This document shows, piece after piece, positions 40 to 46,032 of a stretch of DNA of 64,000 nucleotides; positions within the stretch are counted from its first letter, which is position 1; each line of letters begins with the position of its first letter. Below the pieces are notes generated by a model. That model searched no databases. It saw nothing but the letters and a program-made list of their open reading frames with translations, and had not been told where the DNA came from. This stretch comes from Biomaibacter acetigenes (GTDB lineage: Bacteria > Bacillota > Thermosediminibacteria > Thermosediminibacterales > Tepidanaerobacteraceae). A program made the translations under genes and the position numbers. The DNA is taken from assembly GCF_003691585.1 (NCBI RefSeq), contig NZ_CP033169.1, positions 186,001 to 250,000 on the forward strand, given 5' to 3'.

Positions 40-3000
40 GTTTTTAGCCTCCCTACGAGGAATTGAAACAGGGTGCCGATGCCGAAGCCCACGCAATATA
101 TCTTCGTTTTTAGCCTCCCTACGAGGAATTGAAACACCGCCTCCCTCCTTTGGGCCGCCCGCTTGAATGCGTTTTTAGCCTCCCTACGAGGAATTGAAAC
201 GCATGTCCTTTTCCAGGGCATAAATAATTTCCGGTGTGCGTTTTTAGCCTCCCTACGAGGAATTGAAACTGCTTCCTTCTCGAGATAGTCGGCTGCGGCT
301 TCCTGAGTTTTTAGCCTCCCTACGAGGAATTGAAACTCGGGCTGATTCTTACTCAAAACGAGGAAACTGTCGGTTTTTAGCCTCCCTACGAGGAATTGAA
401 ACATTAATCCGGGGTCTGGATTTGGAATATGTAGGAAGTTTTTAGCCTCCCTACGAGGAATTGAAACTGCTCTTTGACAACTTTTTCCCCTCCTTCAGCT
501 TTCGTTTTTAGCCTCCCTACGAGGAATTGAAACGAAGAACTGGCAAATGATTCATTTATAAAAAATGAAGTTTTTAGCCTCCCTACGAGGAATTGAAACA
601 TATAATCCCTGGCTCCGCCCAGATTGGGAATTCCGTTTTTAGCCTCCCTACGAGGAATTGAAACGAGCTTGCCGAGGTCCGCAAACTCCGGAATGATTGT
701 GTAGTTTTTAGCCTCCCTACGAGGAATTGAAACACTGTAATAATATCCCCGAAGTCCACATATTTAGTTTCGTTTTTAGCCTCCCTACGAGGAATTGAAA
801 CTTTATAAAAAATGAAAAGGAGAATGGGAAAATGAAAAGGTTTTTAGCCTCCCTACGAGGAATTGAAACTTTTATCCAGCGCCGACACGTGTACGAGAAT
901 CGTGCGTTTTTAGCCTCCCTACGAGGAATTGAAACATTAAATCGAAATGCAGAAGATAGAAGGCCGATGCTTGTTTTTAGCCTCCCTACGAGGAATTGAA
1001 ACGCTTCGGGATATGTTCTTTCCTTTGCGCCCTCGGGTTTTTAGCCTCCCTACGAGGAATTGAAACAGAACAGGAGTTATGGACCGCTCAAGACGCAGAA
1101 AAGTTTTTAGCCTCCCTACGAGGAATTGAAACGGGCAACACCGGCATCGAGGAATTTTTGAACCTTATGTTTTTAGCCTCCCTACGAGGAATTGAAACCA
1201 ATTAAGACCTTATATCTTCCCAGGCCAATTCCAGGTTTTTAGCCTCCCTACGAGGAATTGAAACGGATATTTCCGATGCTATAAGCATCATTTTCCGCCG
1301 GTTTTTAGCCTCCCTACGAGGAATTGAAACAGAACAGGAGTTATGGACCGCTCAAGACGCAGAAAAGTTTTTAGCCTCCCTACGAGGAATTGAAACGGGC
1401 AACACCGGCATCGAGGAATTTTTGAACCTTATGTTTTTAGCCTCCCTACGAGGAATTGAAACTGCACTGGTGGATATACGGGCAAGAAAAAATACCCGAG
1501 TTTTTAGCCTCCCTACGAGGAATTGAAACATCCTGGAGCCGGAACTAAAAAAAGCAGGATTCAATCCGTTTTTAGCCTCCCTACGAGGAATTGAAACTCT
1601 TCAAACCATCTAATTCTCCGCCGTATTGTCTTGGTTTTTAGCCTCCCTACGAGGAATTGAAACAAAAGGAACCGGAGGGATTAAAACGTTTAAGCCTGGG
1701 TTTTTAGCCTCCCTACGAGGAATTGAAACATACATTGCAGAATCAGGTAAATGCCGGAGCTGGAACGTTTTTAGCCTCCCTACGAGGAATTGAAACTCCT
1801 TTTCCCTGAAAGTTCGAAGATGCCTGCTTTTGTTTTTAGCCTCCCTACGAGGAATTGAAACTATCAAATCACAATTAATAGCACTGCATTTCAGTATGTT
1901 TTTAGCCTCCCTACGAGGAATTGAAACTCTCAATACCGATGCGGTCATAACGGCTCTGACCATAGGTTTTTAGCCTCCCTACGAGGAATTGAAACCCTTT
2001 TCCGCCAACTTCTTTTATTTCCCGGCAACAGTTTTTAGCCTCCCTACGAGGAATTGAAACAACCTTATGCCGAATACGTACCGGATTTGTTCCAATGTTT
2101 TTAGCCTCCCTACGAGGAATTGAAACGATTCCGCATAGAAATCACCGAAAATACTATCACCGTTTTTAGCCTCCCTACGAGGAATTGAAACCCCGAGCGC
2201 TGCTGGAACTCACGAAATACCAAAAATGGTTTTTAGCCTCCCTACGAGGAATTGAAACATTAGCGTGCACACATTCCACAGCACCATCGTCCACGTTTTT
2301 AGCCTCCCTACGAGGAATTGAAACGGGGCGAGAAGGTCCACAGTTTCCAGAACGAACAGGGTTTTTAGCCTCCCTACGAGGAATTGAAACAGCGGCCCGG
2401 AAACGAGCCGACCCCTCTCCAGGAAGGTTTTTAGCCTCCCTACGAGGAATTGAAACTGAAACTGCAAGTCGTTAAAAACAGCCCTGAACAACGTTTTTAG
2501 CCTCCCTACGAGGAATTGAAACTAGAATTCGCACCTTTTCTCCCATGCCCGCTGTTCGTTTTTAGCCTCCCTACGAGGAATTGAAACACAGTCGACGCAA
2601 TCCAGTGATATTTCCCCCATATCCGTTTTTAGCCTCCCTACGAGGAATTGAAACCTGCTTCCTTTGCTGTCGATACAACAGTTTACCGTCCGTTTTTAGC
2701 CTCCCTACGAGGAATTGAAACAGCAGGTAATTGATAAACTTGTTGATTATTTGCTGGGTTTTTAGCCTCCCTACGAGGAATTGAAACATACTTTTTCCTG
2801 GCAAAAATCGAATTTTAGAAATTGTTTTTAGCCTCCCTACGAGGAATTGAAACATTCTGCAATAGGTGCTGATGCCGAAGCCCACGCAAGTTTTTAGCCT
2901 CCCTACGAGGAATTGAAACCAAAGACCAGCCCATCGGCACAAAGACCGAATACAGTTTTTAGCCTCCCTACGAGGAATTGAAACTTTTTGAAGCTATTTT

Positions 3001-6000
3001 TGCTCTTTCTCCTGGACGAGCGTTTTTAGCCTCCCTACGAGGAATTGAAACACTTACTTCACCTCCTAAATTTTTATATTTCCCTGGGTTTTTAGCCTCC
3101 CTACGAGGAATTGAAACTCTTTTCCAATCCGAATGTCCGTCCCAGGTCCCGAAGTTTTTAGCCTCCCTACGAGGAATTGAAACAATTCGCTTTTCCTTCT
3201 TTGATTTTGCGGCTCGGGGCGTTTTTAGCCTCCCTACGAGGAATTGAAACTTTTAATAAAGTGCATCTTTGAGGCAGGATTCGAAAAAGTTTTTAGCCTC
3301 CCTACGAGGAATTGAAACCTGTATATCCGATTCTGGAAACCTTTTCCATTCCTCCGTTTTTAGCCTCCCTACGAGGAATTGAAACTGGCGTCTATTTGGT
3401 TATTGACGGCATCGAGTATAAGTTTTTAGCCTCCCTACGAGGAATTGAAACTCTGGATCAACGGTCGGTTTTTTCTATTTTCGGGAATGTTTTTAGCCTC
3501 CCTACGAGGAATTGAAACGCTCGTCCAGGAGAAAGAGCAAAAATAGCTTCAAAAAGTTTTTAGCCTCCCTACGAGGAATTGAAACCAAATGAGGAACTCG
3601 AAAGGTACGAAAGGTTAATACCGTTTTTAGCCTCCCTACGAGGAATTGAAACCAAGTCTCATGCCAGTTATTTTTTTCGACGTCATTTGTTTTTAGCCTC
3701 CCTACGAGGAATTGAAACTATCTAGCATAGGCTTGCAGAAATATCCTTTTTTTCGTTTTTAGCCTCCCTACGAGGAATTGAAACCACAAAAACCCGACGC
3801 CAAAACTCTGGATACCAAGCGTTTTTAGCCTCCCTACGAGGAATTGAAACTAATTTGTAAAACTATAACTGCTAGAAATCCCCATGGTTTTTAGCCTCCC
3901 TACGAGGAATTGAAACAGAGCCTTGCAAAAAATCTTTCAAAAAATTTTTATTGCGTTTTTAGCCTCCCTACGAGGAATTGAAACCAACGTGTAGGTATTT
4001 TAGAAAAACAATACACTTCACTGTTTTTAGCCTCCCTACGAGGAATTGAAACTTTCTTTCAGTGCAGACTTGTCCCCAGCCAAATATGTTTTTAGCCTCC
4101 CTACGAGGAATTGAAACCGTTGAAATTATCCAGATCCGTATCTGCGAATCCGGTTTTTAGCCTCCCTACGAGGAATTGAAACATCGCCGCCTGTATCGCC
4201 GCCGTATCATCCGTCACTGTTTTTAGCCTCCCTACGAGGAATTGAAACTGTTGATAAAAAAATAAGGGAGGAATAAAAATTGAGTTTTTAGCCTCCCTAC
4301 GAGGAATTGAAACTCTGTATCCGCATTATAAACTTTTTCGACAGAAATTAGTTTTTAGCCTCCCTACGAGGAATTGAAACATGCAATGCAAAATGTAAAG
4401 GGGGTATGAGGATATGGTTTTTAGCCTCCCTACGAGGAATTGAAACCCTCCTTTTGTACAATCAAAGATGAACGATTAAGAGTTTTTAGCCTCCCTACGA
4501 GGAATTGAAACTATCCGTACACAAAAGATACATATGGCACTATAGTGTTTTTAGCCTCCCTACGAGGAATTGAAACCCTCCTTTTGTACAATCAAAGATG
4601 AACGATTAAGAGTTTTTAGCCTCCCTACGAGGAATTGAAACTAACATGCTCTTGATATACTATAGTGCCATATGTATGTTTTTAGCCTCCCTACGAGGAA
4701 TTGAAACCAATGCAACACATCGATAGTTTTGAATTCGGCCACTGGGTTTTTAGCCTCCCTACGAGGAATTGAAACAATGCGACATTGTTAGACTGACTTT
4801 ATGTAAATCACCTGTTTTTAGCCTCCCTACGAGGAATTGAAACATTGAAAGAAAAAATGAAAAGGAGGATTTTAAAAATGGTTTTTAGCCTCCCTACGAG
4901 GAATTGAAACAATGTGTTTGATGCAATAAACGTATCAAATAGTCCTCCCGTTTTTAGCCTCCCTACGAGGAATTGAAACCAACGCCGGGAATAACTTCTC
5001 CTGTATTTTTCGATATCGTTTTTAGCCTCCCTACGAGGAATTGAAACCGGAGTTGGTCGATCCGTCCCATTTAACTGTAGCCCCGTTTTTAGCCTCCCTA
5101 CGAGGAATTGAAACATTTCCCCACATCTTTCTTAAACTGCTCCCATCCTGTTTTTAGCCTCCCTACGAGGAATTGAAACTGTACTTACATTTAATTCTCG
5201 CCCCCTTGTCAGAAGTTTTTAGCCTCCCTACGAGGAATTGAAACGCTTTTCAATTTTCATCGATTCTTCTCTCCTTTTTCGTTTTTAGCCTCCCTACGAG
5301 GAATTGAAACGTGTCGAGGGCTTTTTTAAGCTCTTCGACTTCCTTTTGTTTTTAGCCTCCCTACGAGGAATTGAAACAAACATCAAAACAATTTTGAATA
5401 TCGATTGCATTATTCGTTTTTAGCCTCCCTACGAGGAATTGAAACTCATTATTCTAGGAATTATTATCATTACTATTGCGGGTTTTTAGCCTCCCTACGA
5501 GGAATTGAAACATTTCAACACCACCAAGGTCGGCCTGGAACGGATGGGTTTTTAGCCTCCCTACGAGGAATTGAAACTTTGAATATTCAGAATTCGACTC
5601 CCTGGCCTGGTATACGTTTTTAGCCTCCCTACGAGGAATTGAAACAAGTATTTGAAAAAAGGTATATTGTCTACATATGAAAAGTTTTTAGCCTCCCTAC
5701 GAGGAATTGAAACAACAAGCCGGTTTTTTTCAAGAAGGCAGGAAAGCTCGTTTTTAGCCTCCCTACGAGGAATTGAAACGTTGGCTCTGGTAGAAGTACC
5801 GAAGCCGAAGGAGAAAAGTTTTTAGCCTCCCTACGAGGAATTGAAACGCAAGTTACTACTGTTTCCTCGTTTTGAGTGAGAATGTTTTTAGCCTCCCTAC
5901 GAGGAATTGAAACCCAGTTCCAGAAACTTCATATCTCATATTGCGATTACGTTTTTAGCCTCCCTACGAGGAATTGAAACGGAGTAGGACCTTTTAATGA

Positions 6001-7903
6001 CATGTCGAGTGTCAGTTTTTAGCCTCCCTACGAGGAATTGAAACATTACCAGTTTGCTTGAAGCACTTCAGTCACAGCAGGCGTTTTTAGCCTCCCTACG
6101 AGGAATTGAAACTGTCATGGTTTTTTGGTAAAAAATTTGTATTTTACTTGTTTTTAGCCTCCCTACGAGGAATTGAAACTCGGGGCCGGAGCCGGAATCC
6201 TGATATACTCTCTTTTTTCGTTTTTAGCCTCCCTACGAGGAATTGAAACAGTGAAATACGAATTTCCGACATTGAAAAAGAGCTTGTTTTTAGCCTCCCT
6301 ACGAGGAATTGAAACTATGAGACAGGTTACAACGGACACCCCGAATTTCCCCGTTTTTAGCCTCCCTACGAGGAATTGAAACTGTAAAGACAAGATAAGG
6401 GCTTGCAGGATGCCCTAGTTTTTAGCCTCCCTACGAGGAATTGAAACCTGGGCTTATGGAATGTGCGAAATGCGGGAGTAAACGTTTTTAGCCTCCCTAC
6501 GAGGAATTGAAACTGCGTAAAAAATCCGGCCTGTCGTCCGTCGTCGCCGAGTTTTTAGCCTCCCTACGAGGAATTGAAACCCCAGCAGCGTTCCGTAGGC
6601 CCGCTTCCAATCCTGGTTTTTAGCCTCCCTACGAGGAATTGAAACATTGTTCAGAGCATCTTATACTACTTGAACAACCTTCCGTTTTTAGCCTCCCTAC
6701 GAGGAATTGAAACGGTTTCGGAAAATTTGACTTTCCTGGCCGTAGAGTTTGTTTTTAGCCTCCCTACGAGGAATTGAAACTTTTATTGCGCAAGAGAAAT
6801 GTCGATATAATATTCCGTTTTTAGCCTCCCTACGAGGAATTGAAACCAGGTCTAATGATGATAGAACAGAAGGCTGGAAAGAGTTTTTAGCCTCCCTACG
6901 AGGAATTGAAACTCGACGTGCGGGGAGAATTTGCCTGGCAAAATATAGGTTTTTAGCCTCCCTACGAGGAATTGAAACTTTCGCATCGCTTTTGCCTGAC
7001 TCTGCCAAGCCCCGCGTTTTTAGCCTCCCTACGAGGAATTGAAACCAAAATACAGGTTCGATGTATCCCCCAAGTCTTAGCGTTTTTAGCCTCCCTACGA
7101 GGAATTGAAACGGTGAACCGTGGACCTCTGGAGCTTTCCGACACCCGGTTTTTAGCCTCCCTACGAGGAATTGAAACCCGCCAGGGCCTTCTGGAAGACC
7201 AGCGCACTTACAGTTTTTAGCCTCCCTACGAGGAATTGAAACGCATACAAATTTTTTATAACTGCCATACAATCTTGGTTTTTAGCCTCCCTACGAGGAA
7301 TTGAAACAGCCAATCCATGATCACTTTTCTGCCGTGCAAGATACGTTTTTAGCCTCCCTACGAGGAATTGAAACCATCACAACGCCTCTGCTTAGCTTTG
7401 CTCCGCTCATGTTTTTAGCCTCCCTACGAGGAATTGAAACACAAAATGTATATTTTGTTATATTCGGGGATACGCAGTTTTTAGCCTCCCTACGAGGAAT
7501 TGAAACTTTTCCCTTATTTTTGCTCAAAAAAGAATCTAACAATGTTTTTAGCCTCCCTACGAGGAATTGAAACTTCTTTCAAACTGCTCTTGCAATTCCT
7601 CCGGCAAAGTTTTTAGCCTCCCTACGAGGAATTGAAATATCTTTCAAATGTAATATAATTCTGGTTCCGAAACGTGTTTTTAGCCTCCCTACGAGGAATT
7701 GAAGTATCTGTAATCCCTATAATCAGGCCGCAATGGAATAGTTTTTAGCCTCTCTACGAGGAATTGAAATCTTCTTCCGGCTGTTCTGGAATCCGCTTTT
7801 CTAGTTCGTTTTTAGCCTCCCTACGAGGAATTGAAACCCTTTGTGCCCCGCTCCGCCATATCCACATCGCCGGGTTTTTAGCCTCCCTACGAGGAATTGA
7901 AAC
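40..7903 (+). CRISPR. Very large CRISPR array, 119 near-canonical repeats
   Basis: I counted 119 copies of a 30-bp repeat that starts GTTTTTAGCCTCC and ends GAGGAATTGAAAC, first at 40-69 and last at 7874-7903. Spacers are 34-40 bp, mostly 35-38. The ATTGAAAC 3' end is the usual 5' handle of type I-B-like crRNAs, so transcription should run on the plus strand, with the leader off the left edge and the old, leader-distal end on the right. All copies are identical except 7609-7638 and 7676-7705 (changed last bases) and 7741-7770 (one internal change plus the last base). Spacers at 1067/1331, 1133/1397 and 4447/4577 are duplicated, and several others overlap or are reverse complements. No cas gene lies in the window, so the subtype is inferred from the repeat alone. 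Short reading frames across the array are translated repeats, not genes. Confidence 0.99.
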
Positions 7904-40154: not shown

Positions 40155-40295
40155 AACTTCAAAAAAATCAGAGAAAGCCTTCTTGCATCTTTAGCTTCTT
40201 TAATAGCTTTAGTCGCATTTACAGCAGTGAGTCCCGCCAGCATATGGATACTATACGAACCGGAAATCCCGGATGCACTAAAGAAAGTTTCCTGA
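40155..40295 (+). pseudogene. Decayed AgrD-like autoinducer peptide gene (copy 1)
   Basis: The frame reads NFKKIRESLLASLASLIAL ... VAFTAVSPASIWILYEPEIP then DALKKVS, almost identical to the intact copy at 41060. The initiation codon ATG is replaced by AAC and the ribosome site is missing. A GTG six codons upstream (40137) is in frame but sits in an 18-nt hairpin GTGTATA/TATACAC. A separate open frame from 40076 (MLKKTWVKVILVLLLVW ...) enters this stretch out of frame and is probably a truncated small membrane protein gene. The copy looks non-functional unless the GTG is used. Confidence 0.75.
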
Positions 40296-40308
40296 AGAAA
40301 AAAATAAA

Positions 40309-40376
40309 CAAAGATAAGGGCGTAAAGCCACAGGGTCTAAGGTGTTTGCCCGCACTATGACAGCCTGGCTGCCGCT
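40309..40376 (+). promoter_or_regulatory. Truncated c-di-GMP-I riboswitch (copy 1)
   Basis: The 3' part of a GEMM-I aptamer is clear: GGGCGTAAAGCCACAGGGTC, TAAGG, then GCACTATGACAGCCTGGCTG and CCGCT. The 5' part (GGCAAAC and the GAAA-capped hairpin present in copy 2) is missing. No gene follows closely on the plus strand. It is most likely a relic of the duplication that also copied agrD. Confidence 0.8.
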
Positions 40377-41059
40377 AACTTTTTTCATCATTCCTACCTC
40401 CTGCAAAAGTATTAAATATTACTGCTTTAAATGCATAATTCCAAGCTTAACTTTTTGATCGAGAGGTACGCCCAGACTACCGAATCCAGTCTAATTTAGT
40501 AACAATAGAAACAATCCTGCGTTACAATGAAGTGGAGGAGGCAGAACAATCCGCCGGTCATTTTATTGTTAAAGGGCCTGTCAAAAAGACCACCAAATAG
40601 ACCACCAAATAGACCATCCACCAGGCTCTTTGTATTTTTCCTTAACTATTAAGGCCACGTTTTGGTAAATAATATCATAAAATGTCACCATCCAGTTGCC
40701 TTCACTGTCTGCTTCTCGAGTAACACCTTCCAATCCACCTGATTCTGTCCTATGCATGTGCCCCCAGAAAACTTGCTCCTTTTTTTCACCCGGATATTCA
40801 AATGGTAAATTATTGAAGGTTTTACTGTCCAAAGAGATATAGAAAACTGTATTAACACAAGAAGGGAAAGAGATACTAACTACTTCTTCTTCACTGGCAA
40901 AACCTCCTTCAGCAATTTCATTATACCATCACCCTTCCGCCGTTCATACCCAAAAAACCGCCAGTTGTACCGGAAAAAGCACCAGTTGTTCCAACTCGGC
41001 AGGAAATAATAAAAAATGTAGAAGATAATAAAGGAAAAAATAGGAAAGGAGGCGAAAAC
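40377..41059. other. Relic-rich intergenic region
   Basis: The minus strand from about 40920 to 40579 encodes a coherent stretch, NEIAEGGFASEEEVVSISFP ... NTVFYISLDSKTFNNLPFEY ... WGHMHRTESGGLEGVTREAD ... GNWMVTFYDIIYQNVALIVKE, but I find no start codon with a ribosome site in that frame, so it is probably the end of a lost gene. It finishes in a 12-bp tandem repeat (ACCACCAAATAG, 40590-40613). From 40918 the plus strand holds a Pro-rich coding relic that is repeated at 42906 and runs in frame into agrD copy 2. Confidence 0.5.
40918..41000 (+). repeat. Pro-rich coding relic, copy 1 of a direct repeat
   Basis: The plus strand reads YTITLPPFIPKKPPVVPEKAPVVP. About 80 bp are repeated at 42906-42990, where it reads YTITIPPFIPQKQPVVPEIPPVVP. 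Neither copy has its own start codon, and both stay open into the next small gene downstream (agrD at 41060; membrane protein at 43064). Confidence 0.8.
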
Positions 41060-41200: not shown

Positions 41201-41213
41201 AGAGAAAGAAATA

Positions 41214-41302
41214 AGTGATAAAGGCAAACTTATCGAAAGATAAGGGCGCAAAGCCATAGGGTCTAAGGTGTTTAGCTGCACTATGACAGCCTGGCTGCCG
41301 CT
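41214..41302 (+). promoter_or_regulatory. c-di-GMP-I (GEMM) riboswitch, intact copy 2
   Basis: All landmarks are present: closing pair AGTG/CGCT, GGCAAAC, first hairpin CTTATC-GAAA-GATAAG with a GNRA loop, then GGGCGCAAAGCCATAGGGTC, TAAGG, and GCACTATGACAGCCTGGCTG with CCGCT. A strong terminator hairpin follows at 41321, so binding of cyclic di-GMP probably decides read-through into the split sigma-factor genes. Whether the ligand turns expression on or off cannot be told from the sequence alone. Confidence 0.92.
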
Positions 41303-41320
41303 GAATATATATTTTGAAAT

Positions 41321-41355
41321 GGCCCGCCATCTTTCCGATAGGCGGGTGATTTTTG
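41321..41355 (+). terminator. Expression-platform terminator of the GEMM riboswitch
   Basis: CCCGCC (41323-41328) and GGCGGG (41341-41346) with A/T extension and a 12-base loop are followed by GATTTTTG. It sits 19 bp after the aptamer and 50 bp before the next gene. Confidence 0.8.
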
Positions 41356-41403
41356 TCTTTTTTAAAGAATCGAAAAAAACATGATGAGAAGAGGATGATA
41401 ATT

Positions 41404-41658
41404 GTGGCGAAAAAACAAAAGCTAAAAGAACTCATACTCAAAGCTCAAGGCGGAGATCAAGATGCTTTTAATCAAGTGATTGAGCGGTTTAAACCGATTG
41501 TTAAGAAATATGCCCGTCGCTTTGGCAGCGAAGATGTTTGCTCGGAAATTGTAGAATGGATAATAAATGCGACAATGAGATATAAAGAAAAAAGTACCTG
41601 GGGCAGGGAAGAACTTGAAAAATTTCTCTCTGCTAATAAATATAAAAACAAGACATAA
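41404..41658 (+). CDS. Sigma-70 region-2-like protein (half of a split sigma factor)
   Basis: An 84-residue protein, MAKKQKLKELILKAQGGDQDAFNQVIERFKPIVKKYARRFGSEDVCSEIVEWIINAT, matching sigma region 1.2/2 (GDxxAFxxLIxxFxPxIxKYAR) and nothing of region 4. The next gene carries a region-4-like domain. Such two-part sigma factors are known in Bacillus (RsoA with SigO). The GTG at 41404 has AAGAGG 9 bp upstream; an ATG at 41395 in the same frame is possible. Expression should depend on the c-di-GMP riboswitch and terminator upstream. Confidence 0.75.
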   Translation: MAKKQKLKELILKAQGGDQDAFNQVIERFKPIVKKYARRFGSEDVCSEIVEWIINATMRYKEKSTWGREELEKFLSANKYKNKT

Positions 41659-41670
41659 AAATTTTTTAGG

Positions 41671-41727
41671 TTTTTTCCAGAAGGGGTTATAAAAACATGT
41701 CCCTGTCCTCTCTTTATATAGTACAGG
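41671..41727 (+). repeat. Direct repeat upstream of the sigma region-4 gene (copy 1)
   Basis: GGTTATAAAAA, CCTGT and TCTCTTTATATAGTA are shared in order and spacing with 42571-42625. The common TATATAGT could be a promoter element used by the local sigma factor (speculative). Confidence 0.5.
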
Positions 41728-41758
41728 CAAAAATATATTTAAGGGAGGCTGGGACAAA

Positions 41759-42184
41759 ATGGTCTCATATCTTTCAGAAATTTTTGAAGATGATCCGGAA
41801 GAAGCCAGGATAACATCATGGTATATAACCGGGATTAAACATGAGGTATTAAGAATAGCAAAAAAACGGCAAAACTTAAAACAGCATGAGGTGCTGATCC
41901 TTAATAAACCCATTGATGATTCGGAAGGCGAATCTATAGAGATGATCGACACTATTGCTGATAGCAGCAACACGGTATCAAAAATAGAAGAAAAGATAGA
42001 TATTGAGCAAGTTTTATCGCATTTGACATTTAAGCAACAGAAAGTAATAAAAATGATATTTCTGCAGGAGAAAACGGAAAAAGAAGTTGCAGAAAAGCTG
42101 AGGATATCCCAACCGGCTGTTCATAGAATCAAGAACAGAGCACTAAGAACGATGAAAGGATATATGAAAAAATGTATGAATTAA
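41759..42184 (+). CDS. Sigma-70 region-4-like protein (second half of a split sigma factor)
   Basis: A 141-residue protein. The N-terminal ~80 residues hold a short helical region (EEARITSWYITGIKHEVLRIAKKRQNL), and residues 85-135 form a typical region 4.2 helix-turn-helix: VLSHLTFKQQKVIKMIFLQEKTEKEVAEKLRISQPAVHRIKNRALRTMKGY, as used to contact the -35 element. It lacks region 2, which is supplied by the preceding gene. GGGAGG precedes the ATG. With the holin-like gene downstream, the arrangement recalls UviA-UviB and TcdR-TcdE loci, where a special sigma factor drives a holin-like release gene. Confidence 0.78.
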   Translation: MVSYLSEIFEDDPEEARITSWYITGIKHEVLRIAKKRQNLKQHEVLILNKPIDDSEGESIEMIDTIADSSNTVSKIEEKIDIEQVLSHLTFKQQKVIKMIFLQEKTEKEVAEKLRISQPAVHRIKNRALRTMKGYMKKCMN

Positions 42185-42249
42185 AGAAATCAAAATTGTC
42201 TCATATGTCCTGGGAAAATATCTATTCTCCATCCTGGAGGTGAAGAAAC

Positions 42250-42567
42250 ATGGAGGATCAGTTTACTTACGTTTCCCTTGGAACTTTGAGCGGTGCCGTT
42301 ACCGCCACAGTACTTGTTGTGGAATTTATTAAAGAAATAAAGTGTTTAAAAGCTTTACCTACAAGATGGCTTGTATTTATAGTTGCTGAAATAATTGTTA
42401 TTTTCACAAGTATTGCAAAAGGTGAATTAATAGTCGTAAATCTACCGTTATATTTTTTAAATGGACTATTAATAACGACATCCGCTATGGGAAGCTGGCA
42501 AATAATAAGTGACAGTTTGAGAAGCCCAAAAATAAAAGGCGTGAAAGAAAAAGCTAAAGGATTATAA
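42250..42567 (+). CDS. Small holin-like membrane protein
   Basis: A 105-residue protein with three hydrophobic helices: LGTLSGAVTATVLVVEFIKEI, WLVFIVAEIIVIFTSIA and LPLYFLNGLLITTSAMGSWQII, and a short basic tail. The order GTLxGAVxAT-xxVxFIK, then PTRWxVxxxAxIIV, then a C-terminal AMGSW/AMGAY helix is like that of small phage holins in Firmicute phages. No endolysin is adjacent. It lies 65 bp after the sigma half-gene with CTGGAGG before the ATG, and is followed by a terminator, so all three probably form the riboswitch-controlled unit. Confidence 0.6.
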   Translation: MEDQFTYVSLGTLSGAVTATVLVVEFIKEIKCLKALPTRWLVFIVAEIIVIFTSIAKGELIVVNLPLYFLNGLLITTSAMGSWQIISDSLRSPKIKGVKEKAKGL

Positions 42568-42570
42568 AAA

Positions 42571-42625
42571 TATTTTTCGCAGGAGGTTATAAAAAGGCCT
42601 CCTGTTTTCTCTATATAGTGTAAGG
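42571..42625 (+). repeat. Direct repeat (copy 2) containing a terminator
   Basis: Matches 41671-41727 (GGTTATAAAAA, CCTGT, TCTCTATATAGTG). In this copy the left half forms a terminator stem. Confidence 0.5.
42580..42608 (+). terminator. Terminator after the holin-like gene
   Basis: CAGGAGG and CCTCCTG form a 7-bp stem with an 11-base loop followed by TTTT. Confidence 0.75.
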
Positions 42626-42743
42626 GAAATAAAAGAGTAATAAACGAAAAGAGGTGAATATGATGATGGGACCGTAATTATTTTTATAAATGTAAATGTA
42701 TATTAATGAAAATTTATCATTCAGAAAGGAAAGTGATTTTGAA

Positions 42744-42905
42744 ATGGCAATAATAATGGAAGGATTAGGGGAGATAATGTTAGCATATCTCCCCTTTTTG
42801 ATTTCTTATTTTTTAAACTTCTTATTTACCCAAAGTATAAAATTAAATACAATAATAATTATATTTACAATCCTCATTACGCCAATTTTATTTATCCCTT
42901 TATAA
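42744..42905 (+). CDS. Possible small membrane peptide
   Basis: A 53-residue frame, MAIIMEGLGEIMLAYLPFLISYFLNF then a second hydrophobic helix, IIIIFTILITPILFIPL. The ribosome site is poor (AAAGGA, 14 bp away). Just upstream, at 42660, a well-placed AGAGGTGA precedes a six-codon frame MMMGP-stop, which suggests a truncated gene start. I do not recognise either; it may be a relic. Confidence 0.35.
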   Translation: MAIIMEGLGEIMLAYLPFLISYFLNFLFTQSIKLNTIIIIFTILITPILFIPL

Positions 42906-42990
42906 ATTATACCATCACCATTCCGCCGTTCATACCTCAAAAACAGCCAGTTGTACCGGAAATCCCGCCAGTTGTTCCAAAAAAGCAGGA
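42906..42990 (+). repeat. Pro-rich coding relic, copy 2 of a direct repeat
   Basis: Second copy of the segment at 40918-41000. It reads YTITIPPFIPQKQPVVPEIP and stays open in frame to the ATG of the membrane protein gene at 43064, though that gene has its own ribosome site. Confidence 0.75.
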
Positions 42991-43063: not shown

Positions 43064-43540
43064 ATGTTTCCCATACCCTGGTATGTGGCGGCTTTTGTAT
43101 CGGTGCCTGAAGCTTTTTTGATTCTGACTGTTGCTATGAGAATGATGGAAATAGAAAAGACGGACTACAAAAAAGTTATTTTGATTTCAGTGATCCAGGG
43201 GGTCATCACTCTTGTAATAAGAAGGATATCTATGGGGGTATCCCAGTATTTTTTATCAAGTTTCCATACGGTGATACTTATAACCACGATGGTATTGATG
43301 TGCAGCCTTTTATGCGGAGTGAAGCTCCAGCGGTGCTTTATACCCATATTTGTGGTGACAGTCATATATGGTTTTATCCAGTACATCGTGGTTTTGAGTG
43401 TCATAAGCTGGCTTAAAATGCCTATTTTTATCCTGGAAGAACAGCCCTGGCTGGATGTAGCACTGTTCTTTCCGGTGGCGGGGTTAACCATATTAATCTT
43501 TTTTTTATTTAAGCGCTTGAACATGTTTGAAAGATTATGA
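43064..43540 (+). CDS. Membrane protein resembling an AgrC sensor domain without kinase
   Basis: A 158-residue protein with five predicted membrane helices (WYVAAFVSVPEAFLILTVAM, VILISVIQGVITLVI, VILITTMVLMCSLLCGV, CFIPIFVVTVIYGFIQYIVVLSVISW, ALFFPVAGLTILIFFLFK). Layout and length are those of the peptide-sensing half of AgrC-type histidine kinases, but no kinase domain follows; the kinase is a separate gene at 44942. GGGAGTG precedes the ATG. Its place directly before agrB suggests a role in sensing or exporting the peptide (inference). Confidence 0.6.
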   Translation: MFPIPWYVAAFVSVPEAFLILTVAMRMMEIEKTDYKKVILISVIQGVITLVIRRISMGVSQYFLSSFHTVILITTMVLMCSLLCGVKLQRCFIPIFVVTVIYGFIQYIVVLSVISWLKMPIFILEEQPWLDVALFFPVAGLTILIFFLFKRLNMFERL

Positions 43541-43578
43541 TAAAAAATTTCATATAGAATTATGCAGGAGGAATCACT

Positions 43579-44229
43579 GTGCTTCAAAAATGTTCTCGAA
43601 CACTGTCAAGGCTGATTATTCTGGGGGCTGCATCAGACAGATACAAGCCGGAAATTATAGAATACGGGCTTATGATTATTTTAGGCACCTTTTTTAAAAT
43701 TGCATCTATCATCGCCATATCTTTTTTCTTAAAAACATTTACCGAGACCATAATAAGCCTTTCGGTCTATGTGCTCATCCGCCATTTTGCGGGGGGAGCC
43801 CACTTAAAAACTTACGGCATGTGTTTTATTACCGGTGTCCTTATGTTTTCCATAAATGGTCTGGTGGCAAAACGTGTAGATATACCTCTGAATATGCTGA
43901 TTTTAATAACGGATATGGTTCTCATGATTGGTCTTTTCATTACATTGAATTGGGTTCCTGCCGGGACGGAGAAAAAGATAATCCGCAATGTCCGGATAAG
44001 GCAACGCCTTCAGGGCATCACCATGATTTTGCTGGGGGTTCTAGGTGTAGTTGCCAATATATTTTACTTTATCGGGCTAAAAACGTATATTATGGCTCTT
44101 TTTTTAGGGGCGCTTGAGGAGCTTTTTTTCATCACTCCCGCAGGATATAGAGTGTTAAATGCTGATTTTGTCGGAAGCAAAAAACATACTGGAAAGGTTG
44201 AGTATCATGGCGAGCATTCTGGTATGTGA
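43579..44229 (+). CDS. agrB: AgrB-type peptide-processing endopeptidase
   Basis: A 216-residue membrane protein of the AgrB family. The catalytic pair is visible in YVLIRHFAGGAHLKTYGMCFITGVL: His of GGAH and Cys seven residues later, the spacing of His77/Cys84 in Staphylococcus AgrB. Several membrane helices surround it. AgrB cleaves the AgrD C-terminal tail and helps form the cyclic peptide. The GTG start follows AGGAGG. Its 3' end overlaps the start of the response-regulator gene by 23 bp. Its substrate is presumably the AgrD peptide(s) at 41060 and 40155, unusually far upstream. Confidence 0.93.
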   Translation: MLQKCSRTLSRLIILGAASDRYKPEIIEYGLMIILGTFFKIASIIAISFFLKTFTETIISLSVYVLIRHFAGGAHLKTYGMCFITGVLMFSINGLVAKRVDIPLNMLILITDMVLMIGLFITLNWVPAGTEKKIIRNVRIRQRLQGITMILLGVLGVVANIFYFIGLKTYIMALFLGALEELFFITPAGYRVLNADFVGSKKHTGKVEYHGEHSGM

Positions 44230-44920
44230 GGATGATAAGAGTACCCTTGTGATGTTTTGCAAGCTTCTAGAAGTAAATCCTCTCATAGATGAAATATATC
44301 GGGCCGGCACCGGCAATGAAGCTGTCCGGATAATAAAGGAAAAATCTCCCGATATACTCATCCTTGACATAGATTTACCCGATATAGACGGTATCCAGGT
44401 GGCAAAGATTGCCTGCGACCTGAACCCAAAAGTGTCAGTAGCATTTGTTACCGGGTACCCTGATTTTGCAGCTCAATCCTTTGTAGTGCATCCTTACGAT
44501 TACATCATAAAACCCATAGATGTGGAGAGATTCCTGGATACGGTAAATAAACTGGCTACAAAGTTGGAATGTGACATCTTGAAAAATAAACTCAAATTGA
44601 CCGGGAAGTTTCCACTCAAGACAGAGGATGGCATAATGTTTCTAAACTTGGATGATGTAATCTTTATAGAAAAGAATGGAAAAGAAACTATCATCCACAC
44701 CAAAAGTGGAATGCACAAGTGCAATTGCAATCTGAAAGACCTGGAATCAAATCTAAATGAAGAATTTTACAGGGTTCACAAGTCATTTATAGTAAATGTC
44801 ACCATGATAGAACGGATAAAGAACATTGGGGAGTCTTATGTTATTACATTTCATGACAATGATAAGATTGCTTTGATGAGTAAAAGTAGATTCCAGTTTT
44901 TAAAAGAGAAATTGGTATAA
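44207..44920 (+). CDS. AgrA-like LytTR response regulator
   Basis: A 237-residue two-domain regulator. Residues 1-120 form a receiver with CEDDKSTLVMFCKLLEV, phospho-acceptor Asp in DILILDIDLPDIDGIQVAKIA and KPIDVERFL. Residues ~135-237 form a LytTR DNA-binding domain: FPLKTEDGIMFLNLDDVIFIEKNGKETIIHTKSG ... LEEFYRVHKSFIVNV-type stretch, FHDNDKIALMSKSR. The start at 44207 has GGAAAGG upstream; a longer in-frame ATG at 44159 lies deep in agrB. It should be phosphorylated by the adjacent kinase and control peptide or target genes. Confidence 0.92.
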   Translation: MASILVCEDDKSTLVMFCKLLEVNPLIDEIYRAGTGNEAVRIIKEKSPDILILDIDLPDIDGIQVAKIACDLNPKVSVAFVTGYPDFAAQSFVVHPYDYIIKPIDVERFLDTVNKLATKLECDILKNKLKLTGKFPLKTEDGIMFLNLDDVIFIEKNGKETIIHTKSGMHKCNCNLKDLESNLNEEFYRVHKSFIVNVTMIERIKNIGESYVITFHDNDKIALMSKSRFQFLKEKLV

Positions 44921-44941
44921 ATTTTGAAATGGTGGGATGAT

Positions 44942-45784
44942 GTGAATGTGTTTAATAAAAATCTCATAATTATATTTGCATTTACAGTGCAGATGTTCTT
45001 TATACTCATATTAAATCAGTGGATGGTAGCCTCCGACCGGCAGCTTTATATGAGAAATTTGCCCTTTTTTATCATTTATCTCTTGGCTTCGCTGGTACTT
45101 TATTTCTACATAATTAAAACTACCGAGAGTTTTACCAGGAAGGAGATCGAATATAAGTCTATTAAAGCCCATTGGAAAGAGATAGAAGAATTGTTGAATA
45201 CCTTGAACGGCCAGAGGCACCAATATTCAAAACATATACAGACTATTCAAGCCTTGCTTTATACCGAAGAATATGATGAACTCAAAGAATATATAAACGG
45301 CATAGCCGGGGAATACAGGGCTACTGGAGAAATGTTGAGGCTGGGGAACATGGCTCTAAATGCGGTGGTAAATGTAAAAAGAGAGCTTATGGCGAGAAAT
45401 AACATAGCTTTTAAAGCCGAAGTCTTGGCAAAAGTAAATGATACCGGCATCAGCTCCTGGGATCTGAGCACGGTCATCGGCAATATTCTTGACAATGCCA
45501 TAGAAGCTGTACTGGAAAAGCCGGATGACCGGCAGATATATTTTGAAACGGATTATAAAAAGGGATATTTTATATTCAGGATATCCAACAACGGCAATCG
45601 AATAGATGAAAATGATCTAGGTAAAATCTTTCAACCAGGCTACAGTACAAGAGAGCATGAGACACGGGGATACGGCCTCTATGTGGTAAAAAAGATATTG
45701 GATAAATGCGGCGGCTGGATAAAAGTACAATCAAGTCAAGAATTAACCACCTTTACTGTATACTTGCCGGGAAAAACGTTGTAA
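44942..45784 (+). CDS. AgrC/CitA-like GHKL sensor histidine kinase
   Basis: A 280-residue kinase with only two N-terminal membrane helices (IIIFAFTVQMFFILILNQW, FFIIYLLASLVLYFYII), so it lacks the full AgrC peptide sensor; the separate five-helix protein at 43064 may supply that. The dimerisation/phospho-acceptor region has QRHQYSKHIQTIQALL, and the GHKL ATPase has STVIGNILDNAIEAVLE (N box), FRISNNGNRI and TRGYGLYVVKKILDKCGG (G box). The GTG at 44942 after GGTGGG is preferred to a TTG at 44924. It ends the agr unit; the SAM-riboswitch promoter follows. Confidence 0.88.
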   Translation: MNVFNKNLIIIFAFTVQMFFILILNQWMVASDRQLYMRNLPFFIIYLLASLVLYFYIIKTTESFTRKEIEYKSIKAHWKEIEELLNTLNGQRHQYSKHIQTIQALLYTEEYDELKEYINGIAGEYRATGEMLRLGNMALNAVVNVKRELMARNNIAFKAEVLAKVNDTGISSWDLSTVIGNILDNAIEAVLEKPDDRQIYFETDYKKGYFIFRISNNGNRIDENDLGKIFQPGYSTREHETRGYGLYVVKKILDKCGGWIKVQSSQELTTFTVYLPGKTL

Positions 45785-45915: not shown

Positions 45916-46032
45916 CTCTCATCCAGAGAGGCGGAGGGACTGGCCCTATGAAGCCCGGCAACCGTCAGCAACATGTCTGCTGGAACCGGTGCCAATTCCT
46001 GCAAAGCGCTAAAGCGCTTTGGAAGATGAGAG
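45916..46032 (+). promoter_or_regulatory. SAM-I (S-box) riboswitch
   Basis: The closing stem CTCTCATC/GATGAGAG encloses AGAGAGGCGGAGGGACTGGC, CCTATGAAGCCCGGCAACC, GGTGCCAATTCC and TGCAAAGCGC, all S-box landmarks. A terminator follows at 46049. With SAM bound the antiterminator cannot form, so the downstream transporter and enzymes are expected to be on only when SAM is low. Confidence 0.97.

Follow-up and report, generated by a model that had tools for sequence, protein, structure and literature searches.

Three adjacent genes of Biomaibacter acetigenes, which encode the sigma subunits R2 and R4 and a holin-like membrane protein, HOL, probably form a doubly gated release operon that a two-subunit sigma factor switches on. 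The window, which is the whole stretch of 64,000 nucleotides that was analysed, runs from 186 to 250 kb in a complete genome of 3.4 Mb (G000) that belongs to the same family as Tepidanaerobacter. The original prediction had described a riboswitch-controlled split sigma factor next to a holin-like gene at 41404-42567. Its coordinates and gene assignments hold on profile matches and helix prediction, and its interpretation is, overall, supported.

The two sigma genes

41404-41658, plus strand: R2, an RsoA-like sigma subunit with regions 2.1-2.2 (PF12645, E 9e-7; TIGR02937 positions 1-50; dN/dS)
41759-42184, plus strand: R4, a SigO-like sigma subunit with regions 2.3-2.4 and 4 (PF04545, E 4.5e-11; TIGR02937 positions 47-164)

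R2 encodes 84 residues and R4 encodes 141, the latter with a Sigma70_r4 match (E 4.5e-11). The sigma70-ECF model TIGR02937 has 165 positions, with 1-50 falling on R2 and 47-164 on R4, and the split therefore lies inside region 2, between 2.2 and 2.3, so that the helix reading the -10 block belongs to R4. Regions 2 and 4 had been assigned to two separate genes in the original prediction. The PF12645 and Sigma70_r4 matches bear out the separate genes, while the boundary is refined, as the break falls inside region 2 and regions 2.3-2.4 go with R4.

R2, R4, and HOL are all under purifying selection (dN/dS ∼0.14-0.37 in comparisons of the window genes), and the gene order riboswitch-R2-R4-HOL is repeated in other genera, indicating that they are more than chance open reading frames. 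Both sigma genes are intact, and their arrangement as adjacent separate genes is conserved in several other genera. In single-chain relatives (L061, L122, L147, and L142), one polypeptide contains both the R2 and the R4 sequence. Despite these fused versions, reading the split as a frameshifted pseudogene was rejected, because neither half is damaged and purifying selection acts on both in several genera.

The window R4 is a continuous reading frame, unlike R4 in loci L133, L138, L139, L141, L144, L150, and L151, which has no in-frame start codon. At these loci R4 is preceded by a ribosome site and an open reading frame of 4-6 codons, often ending in PYT-stop, and lies in the +1 frame. Programmed +1 frameshifting (as in prfB) or re-initiation is a candidate explanation. 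The R4 start of L140 and L145 fits a -1 shift instead.

The closest comparison for the sigma genes is SigO-RsoA, which works as a natural AND gate and whose transcription targets are oxdC-yvrL, yvrJ, and its own operon (PMC8103513, PMC10028694). As in the published description of that pair, the region-2 and region-4 parts occupy separate neighboring genes. SigO-RsoA activates the small-membrane-protein gene yvrJ, and relative L196 has a YvrJ gene between its two sigma halves; SigO-RsoA also activates its own operon, and a conserved, putative promoter element stands ahead of R4 in the window. RsoA reportedly carries a region 2.3-like segment (Xue 2016), whereas the break here precedes region 2.3 and leaves the small subunit R2 without a whole region 2. 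In further contrast, R4 (141 residues) is smaller than SigO (22.5 kDa), the window halves lie behind a c-di-GMP riboswitch, and their partner is HOL.

Neither oxdC-yvrL nor yvrJ is present at the window locus. A YvrJ link within this genome was considered and rejected, as its YvrJ gene lies elsewhere, without these sigma genes. In many of the genomes examined, YvrJ genes (L177-L201) sit directly ahead of an amidase-like gene, a position that would be in keeping with YvrJ acting in a holin-like way.

The membrane protein of the third gene

42250-42567, plus strand: HOL, a holin-like three-helix membrane protein (fold match, PHROG matches, and genome neighborhoods)

HOL has 105 residues, with AlphaFold helices predicted at 7-29, 38-57, and 62-91 (pLDDT 67, moderate confidence), and fits the holin size class of small proteins with two to four transmembrane helices. 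It has no Pfam match, and Pfam and NCBIfam give no family name; it is hence not a BhlA/UviB protein (PF10960). A PDB fold search returned nothing useful. The best viral structural match (BFVD), obtained with a model of moderate confidence, is a phage holin (prob 1.00, TM 0.70/0.74, E 6e-3), and PHROG holin families match 4 of 22 and 3 of 22 HOL relatives.

Genome neighborhoods point in the same direction. In the phage contigs L032, L098, and L099, HOL homologues come after endolysin-like genes; in Bacillota they come after an Rv2525c-like enzyme (L086) or an M23 peptidase (L096). Near sigma genes, an Amidase_3 gene occurs in L151 and an Rv2525c-like enzyme in L146; neither a lysin nor an obvious cargo gene is present at the window locus. 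The HOL slot is occupied by a BhlA holin in L139 and L142 (the latter with Amidase_2) and by YvrJ in L196. The strongest case for HOL acting as a holin comes from this replacement by unrelated membrane proteins in the same slot. HOL is also found without nearby sigma genes (L026-L028, L085, and L087). The expectation of a three-helix, holin-like neighbor has thus held up: three helices are predicted, relatives lie beside endolysins, and when structural unrelatedness to holins was looked for, the best fold match proved to be a phage holin, at moderate model confidence.

It is unlikely, although it deserves weighing, that the sigma factor drives a small regulon and that HOL is a membrane regulator of the sigma factor (an anti-sigma factor or sensor) rather than a holin. 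HOL is co-encoded with the sigma genes, the window has no lysin, and a comparable integral membrane protein reportedly controls SigO-RsoA (Davis 2016, cited in PMC10141391). However, relatives of HOL adjoin endolysins in phages that lack such a sigma factor, both the fold and the PHROG matches are to holins, BhlA holins replace HOL, and the loops of HOL are short, with no evident sigma-binding domain.

Dedicated sigma factors beside holins are known from UviA-UviB (Bcn5, Clostridium perfringens) and TcdR-TcdE, where an endolysin lies in or near the locus and leaderless proteins are released; holins may also act without lysis (PMC9527704). The window resembles these systems in placing sigma genes beside a holin-like gene. 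It differs in having a two-chain rather than a single-chain sigma factor and a holin of another family than BhlA or TcdE, BhlA being found only in relatives L139 and L142. UviA-UviB and TcdR-TcdE also lack the c-di-GMP riboswitch present here.

Other genes recur around these loci. Candidate cargo proteins without an evident signal peptide, one of them an NAGPA-type glycosidase, are encoded near L039, L136, L145, L147, and L148. A lipoprotein gene with YCF48/BNR-like repeats (TTDGG and EGWA motifs) occurs near L022, L137, L146, and L150, in most cases on the other strand. In L133, L141, L143, L150, and L151, serine recombinase genes are located a few kb away from the split sigma genes, some of them after a copy of the promoter-like element described below.

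The riboswitch and the agr locus

40163-40376 (approximate), plus strand: degenerate copy of the agrD-riboswitch pair (from sequence; aptamer part 40293-40376, 46.4 bits)
40961-40990, plus strand: VirR/LytTR-type box CCAGTT-N15-CCAGTT upstream of agrD (matches the consensus of PMC4747519)
41060-41200, plus strand: agrD, cyclic autoinducer peptide precursor (TIGR04223, 44.8 bits against a cut-off of 19)
41213-41302, plus strand: c-di-GMP-I riboswitch aptamer (RF01051, 81.4 bits against a gathering threshold of 35)
41316-41363, plus strand: intrinsic terminator of the riboswitch, a stem-loop and T tract
42947-42976, plus strand: second VirR/LytTR-type box, ahead of the agrB operon (sequence match)
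43064-45784, plus strand: agr operon (profile matches)
43064-43540, plus strand: agr operon, membrane protein similar to the AgrC sensor half
43579-44229, plus strand: agr operon, agrB (PF04647)
44207-44920, plus strand: agr operon, LytTR response regulator
44924-45784, plus strand: agr operon, GHKL kinase

The placement of the sigma unit behind a c-di-GMP riboswitch, as originally proposed, is confirmed by the aptamer score (81.4 bits against 35) and by the terminator. This arrangement is widespread: 15 genomes of eight families have a c-di-GMP-I riboswitch ahead of the sigma unit (G000, G001, where the sigma factor is fused, G003, G004, G013, G018, G019, G022, G058, G109, G134, G207, G230, G301, and G364), and a comparable hairpin with a T tract occurs in most of the other riboswitch-sigma loci. 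The Biomaibacter genome has 11 c-di-GMP-I aptamers; by our own estimate, chance proximity within 300 bases has a probability of ∼5e-4 per gene. Sigma loci without the riboswitch are found in five families (f26, f33, f69, f138, and G174 of f51).

The polarity of the switch was approached by a partition-function calculation, which favored termination on binding at 5 of 14 loci and gave no difference at the other 9, a weak hint that c-di-GMP stops transcription before R2. The aptamer class and the intrinsic terminator in the leader are those of clostridial c-di-GMP-I riboswitches such as Cd1, which precedes flgB. The targets of C. difficile c-di-GMP-I riboswitches are flagella, surface, and regulator genes (PMC6200980), whereas the gene downstream here encodes a sigma subunit, and a c-di-GMP signal could therefore reach a promoter class.

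The second signal comes from the surrounding agr genes. The location of the unit inside an agr locus agrees with the original prediction, as agrD (TIGR04223) lies upstream and agrB (PF04647) downstream. The published VirR consensus is CCAnTT-N15-CCAGTT (PMC4747519); it is matched exactly at 40961 and 42947 and nowhere else in the window (0.03 matches expected within 3 mismatches), and the four best VirR-type sites in the genome are in its two agr/sigma loci. The gap between the agrD stop and the start of the aptamer is only 12 nt, so it is most likely the agrD transcript that feeds the riboswitch and from which R2 is read. The VirSR/Agr-like system of C. perfringens similarly combines CCAGTT-N15-CCAGTT direct repeats with an Agr-type peptide system (PMC4747519, PMC7492741). 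Here, unlike in C. perfringens, the boxes precede both agrD and the agrB operon, and transcription through agrD most likely continues into the riboswitch-sigma unit. The VirR-type boxes and the 12-nt gap lend sequence support to the earlier proposal of joint control by cell density and c-di-GMP. Most sigma loci elsewhere have no agr genes; the agr link is lineage-specific, and the riboswitch link is wide.

AgrC is seemingly split into a membrane half (43064-43540) and a kinase half (44924-45784); in L023 it is one protein of 483 residues. A second agrD-riboswitch-R2-R4-HOL-agrB locus in this genome, at 2.80 Mb (L025), is decayed: a deletion joins R2 to the -10 block, and R4 and HOL are cut short. 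A third locus, at 316-327 kb (L061, ∼318 kb), has a fused R2-R4 sigma gene, two c-di-GMP-I riboswitches, and AgrD-like short peptides. Elsewhere in the window, a very long CRISPR array with >110 CRISPR-DR2 repeats occupies 40-7903, and an ordinary-looking SAM riboswitch at 45916-46032 precedes a transporter-type lipoprotein gene.

We regard it as rather improbable that the unit is a mobile or prophage lysis cassette, domesticated or in decay, with no present host function. The decayed copy at 2.80 Mb, the degenerate agrD-riboswitch copy upstream of the window unit, the phage relatives of HOL, and the serine recombinase genes near several relatives speak for this reading. Against this, all three window genes are under purifying selection; the riboswitch, terminator, boxes, and promoter element are intact; the unit is present in many families; and none of the loci that were read had phage structural genes next to it.

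The promoter-like element and the proposed pathway

41686-41723, plus strand: P1, promoter-like element GTTATAAAA-N15-CTCTTTATATAGTA ahead of R4 (sequence comparison)
42586-42620, plus strand: P2, second copy of the element, overlapping a terminator-like hairpin at 42579-42605
42660-42905, plus strand: predicted short P2 transcript region (from sequence)

The interval from the R2 stop to the R4 start contains the element GTTATWAAA-N14/15-CTCTTTATATAGTA, more or less exact, in ∼15 species. In its strict form it has two copies in the 3.4-Mb Biomaibacter genome, at 41686 and 42586 of the window, both at the split-sigma locus; across 26 genomes of the class, the strict form occurs in 4, once each and always at a split-sigma locus. 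A relaxed form gave 22 matches in 20 genomes against none for a reversed-pattern control, with a few of the 22 (L166, L167, and L171) inside unrelated genes. The region predicted to be transcribed from P2 contains a tiny open reading frame (MMMGP-stop, 42660-42677), a hydrophobic frame of 53 codons from 42744, and a terminator-like repeat (42768-42799).

A score matrix trained on the R2-R4 sites was applied to 651 upstream regions, with shuffled sequences reaching a maximum of 12.1. The top scores belong to R4, HOL, an Rv2525c-like enzyme gene, and a small number of further genes close to the split-sigma loci. R4 regions were in the training set, and the independent cases are therefore the remaining top scorers. 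For example, the element lies upstream of HOL where HOL is divergent from the sigma genes (L140, score 21.6) or is the first gene (L155 and L144), and it precedes the Rv2525c-like enzyme gene in L146. The region upstream of the unlinked Thermosediminibacter HOL, at a separate locus, scores 10.7, which is inside the background range and therefore suggestive only. The possibility that the sigma factor acts through this element on agrD, the agrB operon, or R2 was rejected, as none of them has a site above background.

These comparisons support the view that the promoter-like element would put HOL under the split sigma factor, and we infer that the element represents a promoter class read by the R2 and R4 sigma factor. 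The putative -35 block, GTTATWAAA, differs from the TTTACA of UviA/TcdR-type sigma factors (PMC4031146). That the GTTATWAAA...CTCTTTATATAG element is instead an intrinsic terminator or RNA processing site, and so would not point to the sigma targets, is very doubtful: strong hairpins followed by T-rich sequence do occur in L133, L141, L144, L151, and at window P2, but the hairpin is weak or absent at window P1 and in L022, L023, L145, L146, and L147 while both blocks and their 14-15-nt spacing are kept, the element also stands ahead of genes that come first (for example HOL where it is divergent, in L140, and the HOL of L155), and its presence follows the sigma genes genome-wide.

The sequence itself displays the boxes, the riboswitch with its terminator, the three conserved genes, and the promoter-like element. 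In the pathway proposed from them, high cell density would lead the AgrA-like regulator to activate the agrD promoter, and c-di-GMP would set read-through past the terminator into R2, probably with a stop at high c-di-GMP. R2 (2.1-2.2) and R4 (2.3-2.4 plus 4) would then pair to form a sigma factor that recognizes GTTATWAAA-N14/15-CTCTTTATATAG. This sigma factor may raise R4 and HOL in a positive feedback and, in relatives, also lysins or leaderless proteins. HOL would open the membrane, and cell-wall enzymes or other leaderless proteins could be released, with or without the controlled lysis raised in the original prediction.

The window unit would work like SigO-RsoA and the UviA/TcdR-type systems, yet is a member of neither. 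A literature search combining c-di-GMP riboswitch, sigma factor, and holin returned C. difficile papers only, a wider one yielded nothing about a split sigma factor, and none of the papers found connects the riboswitch with a split sigma factor or a holin partner. The parts are of known kinds; what seems new is their combination, together with the promoter and the HOL family.

The unit of split sigma factor and own promoter element is found across many Bacillota families, often beside cell-wall-cutting enzymes. With some caution, we lean toward the broader view that these loci are widespread, undescribed Bacillota release systems, in which c-di-GMP, joined in some lineages by quorum sensing, gates a sigma factor that is split in region 2 and has its own promoter class, switching on interchangeable holins (BhlA/UviB, YvrJ, or members of the new family) and, along with them, leaderless cell-wall enzymes or further cargo. 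The promoter, holin family, and targets are predicted in many species, making this view directly testable.

If it is correct, the split sigma factor would be a second two-subunit type beyond SigO-RsoA. The findings also suggest a possible role for the small membrane partners of split sigma factors, such as YvrJ, whose function is unclear. Moreover, a riboswitch placed on a sigma subunit would extend the reach of c-di-GMP to an entire class of promoters, coupling biofilm signaling to protein release.
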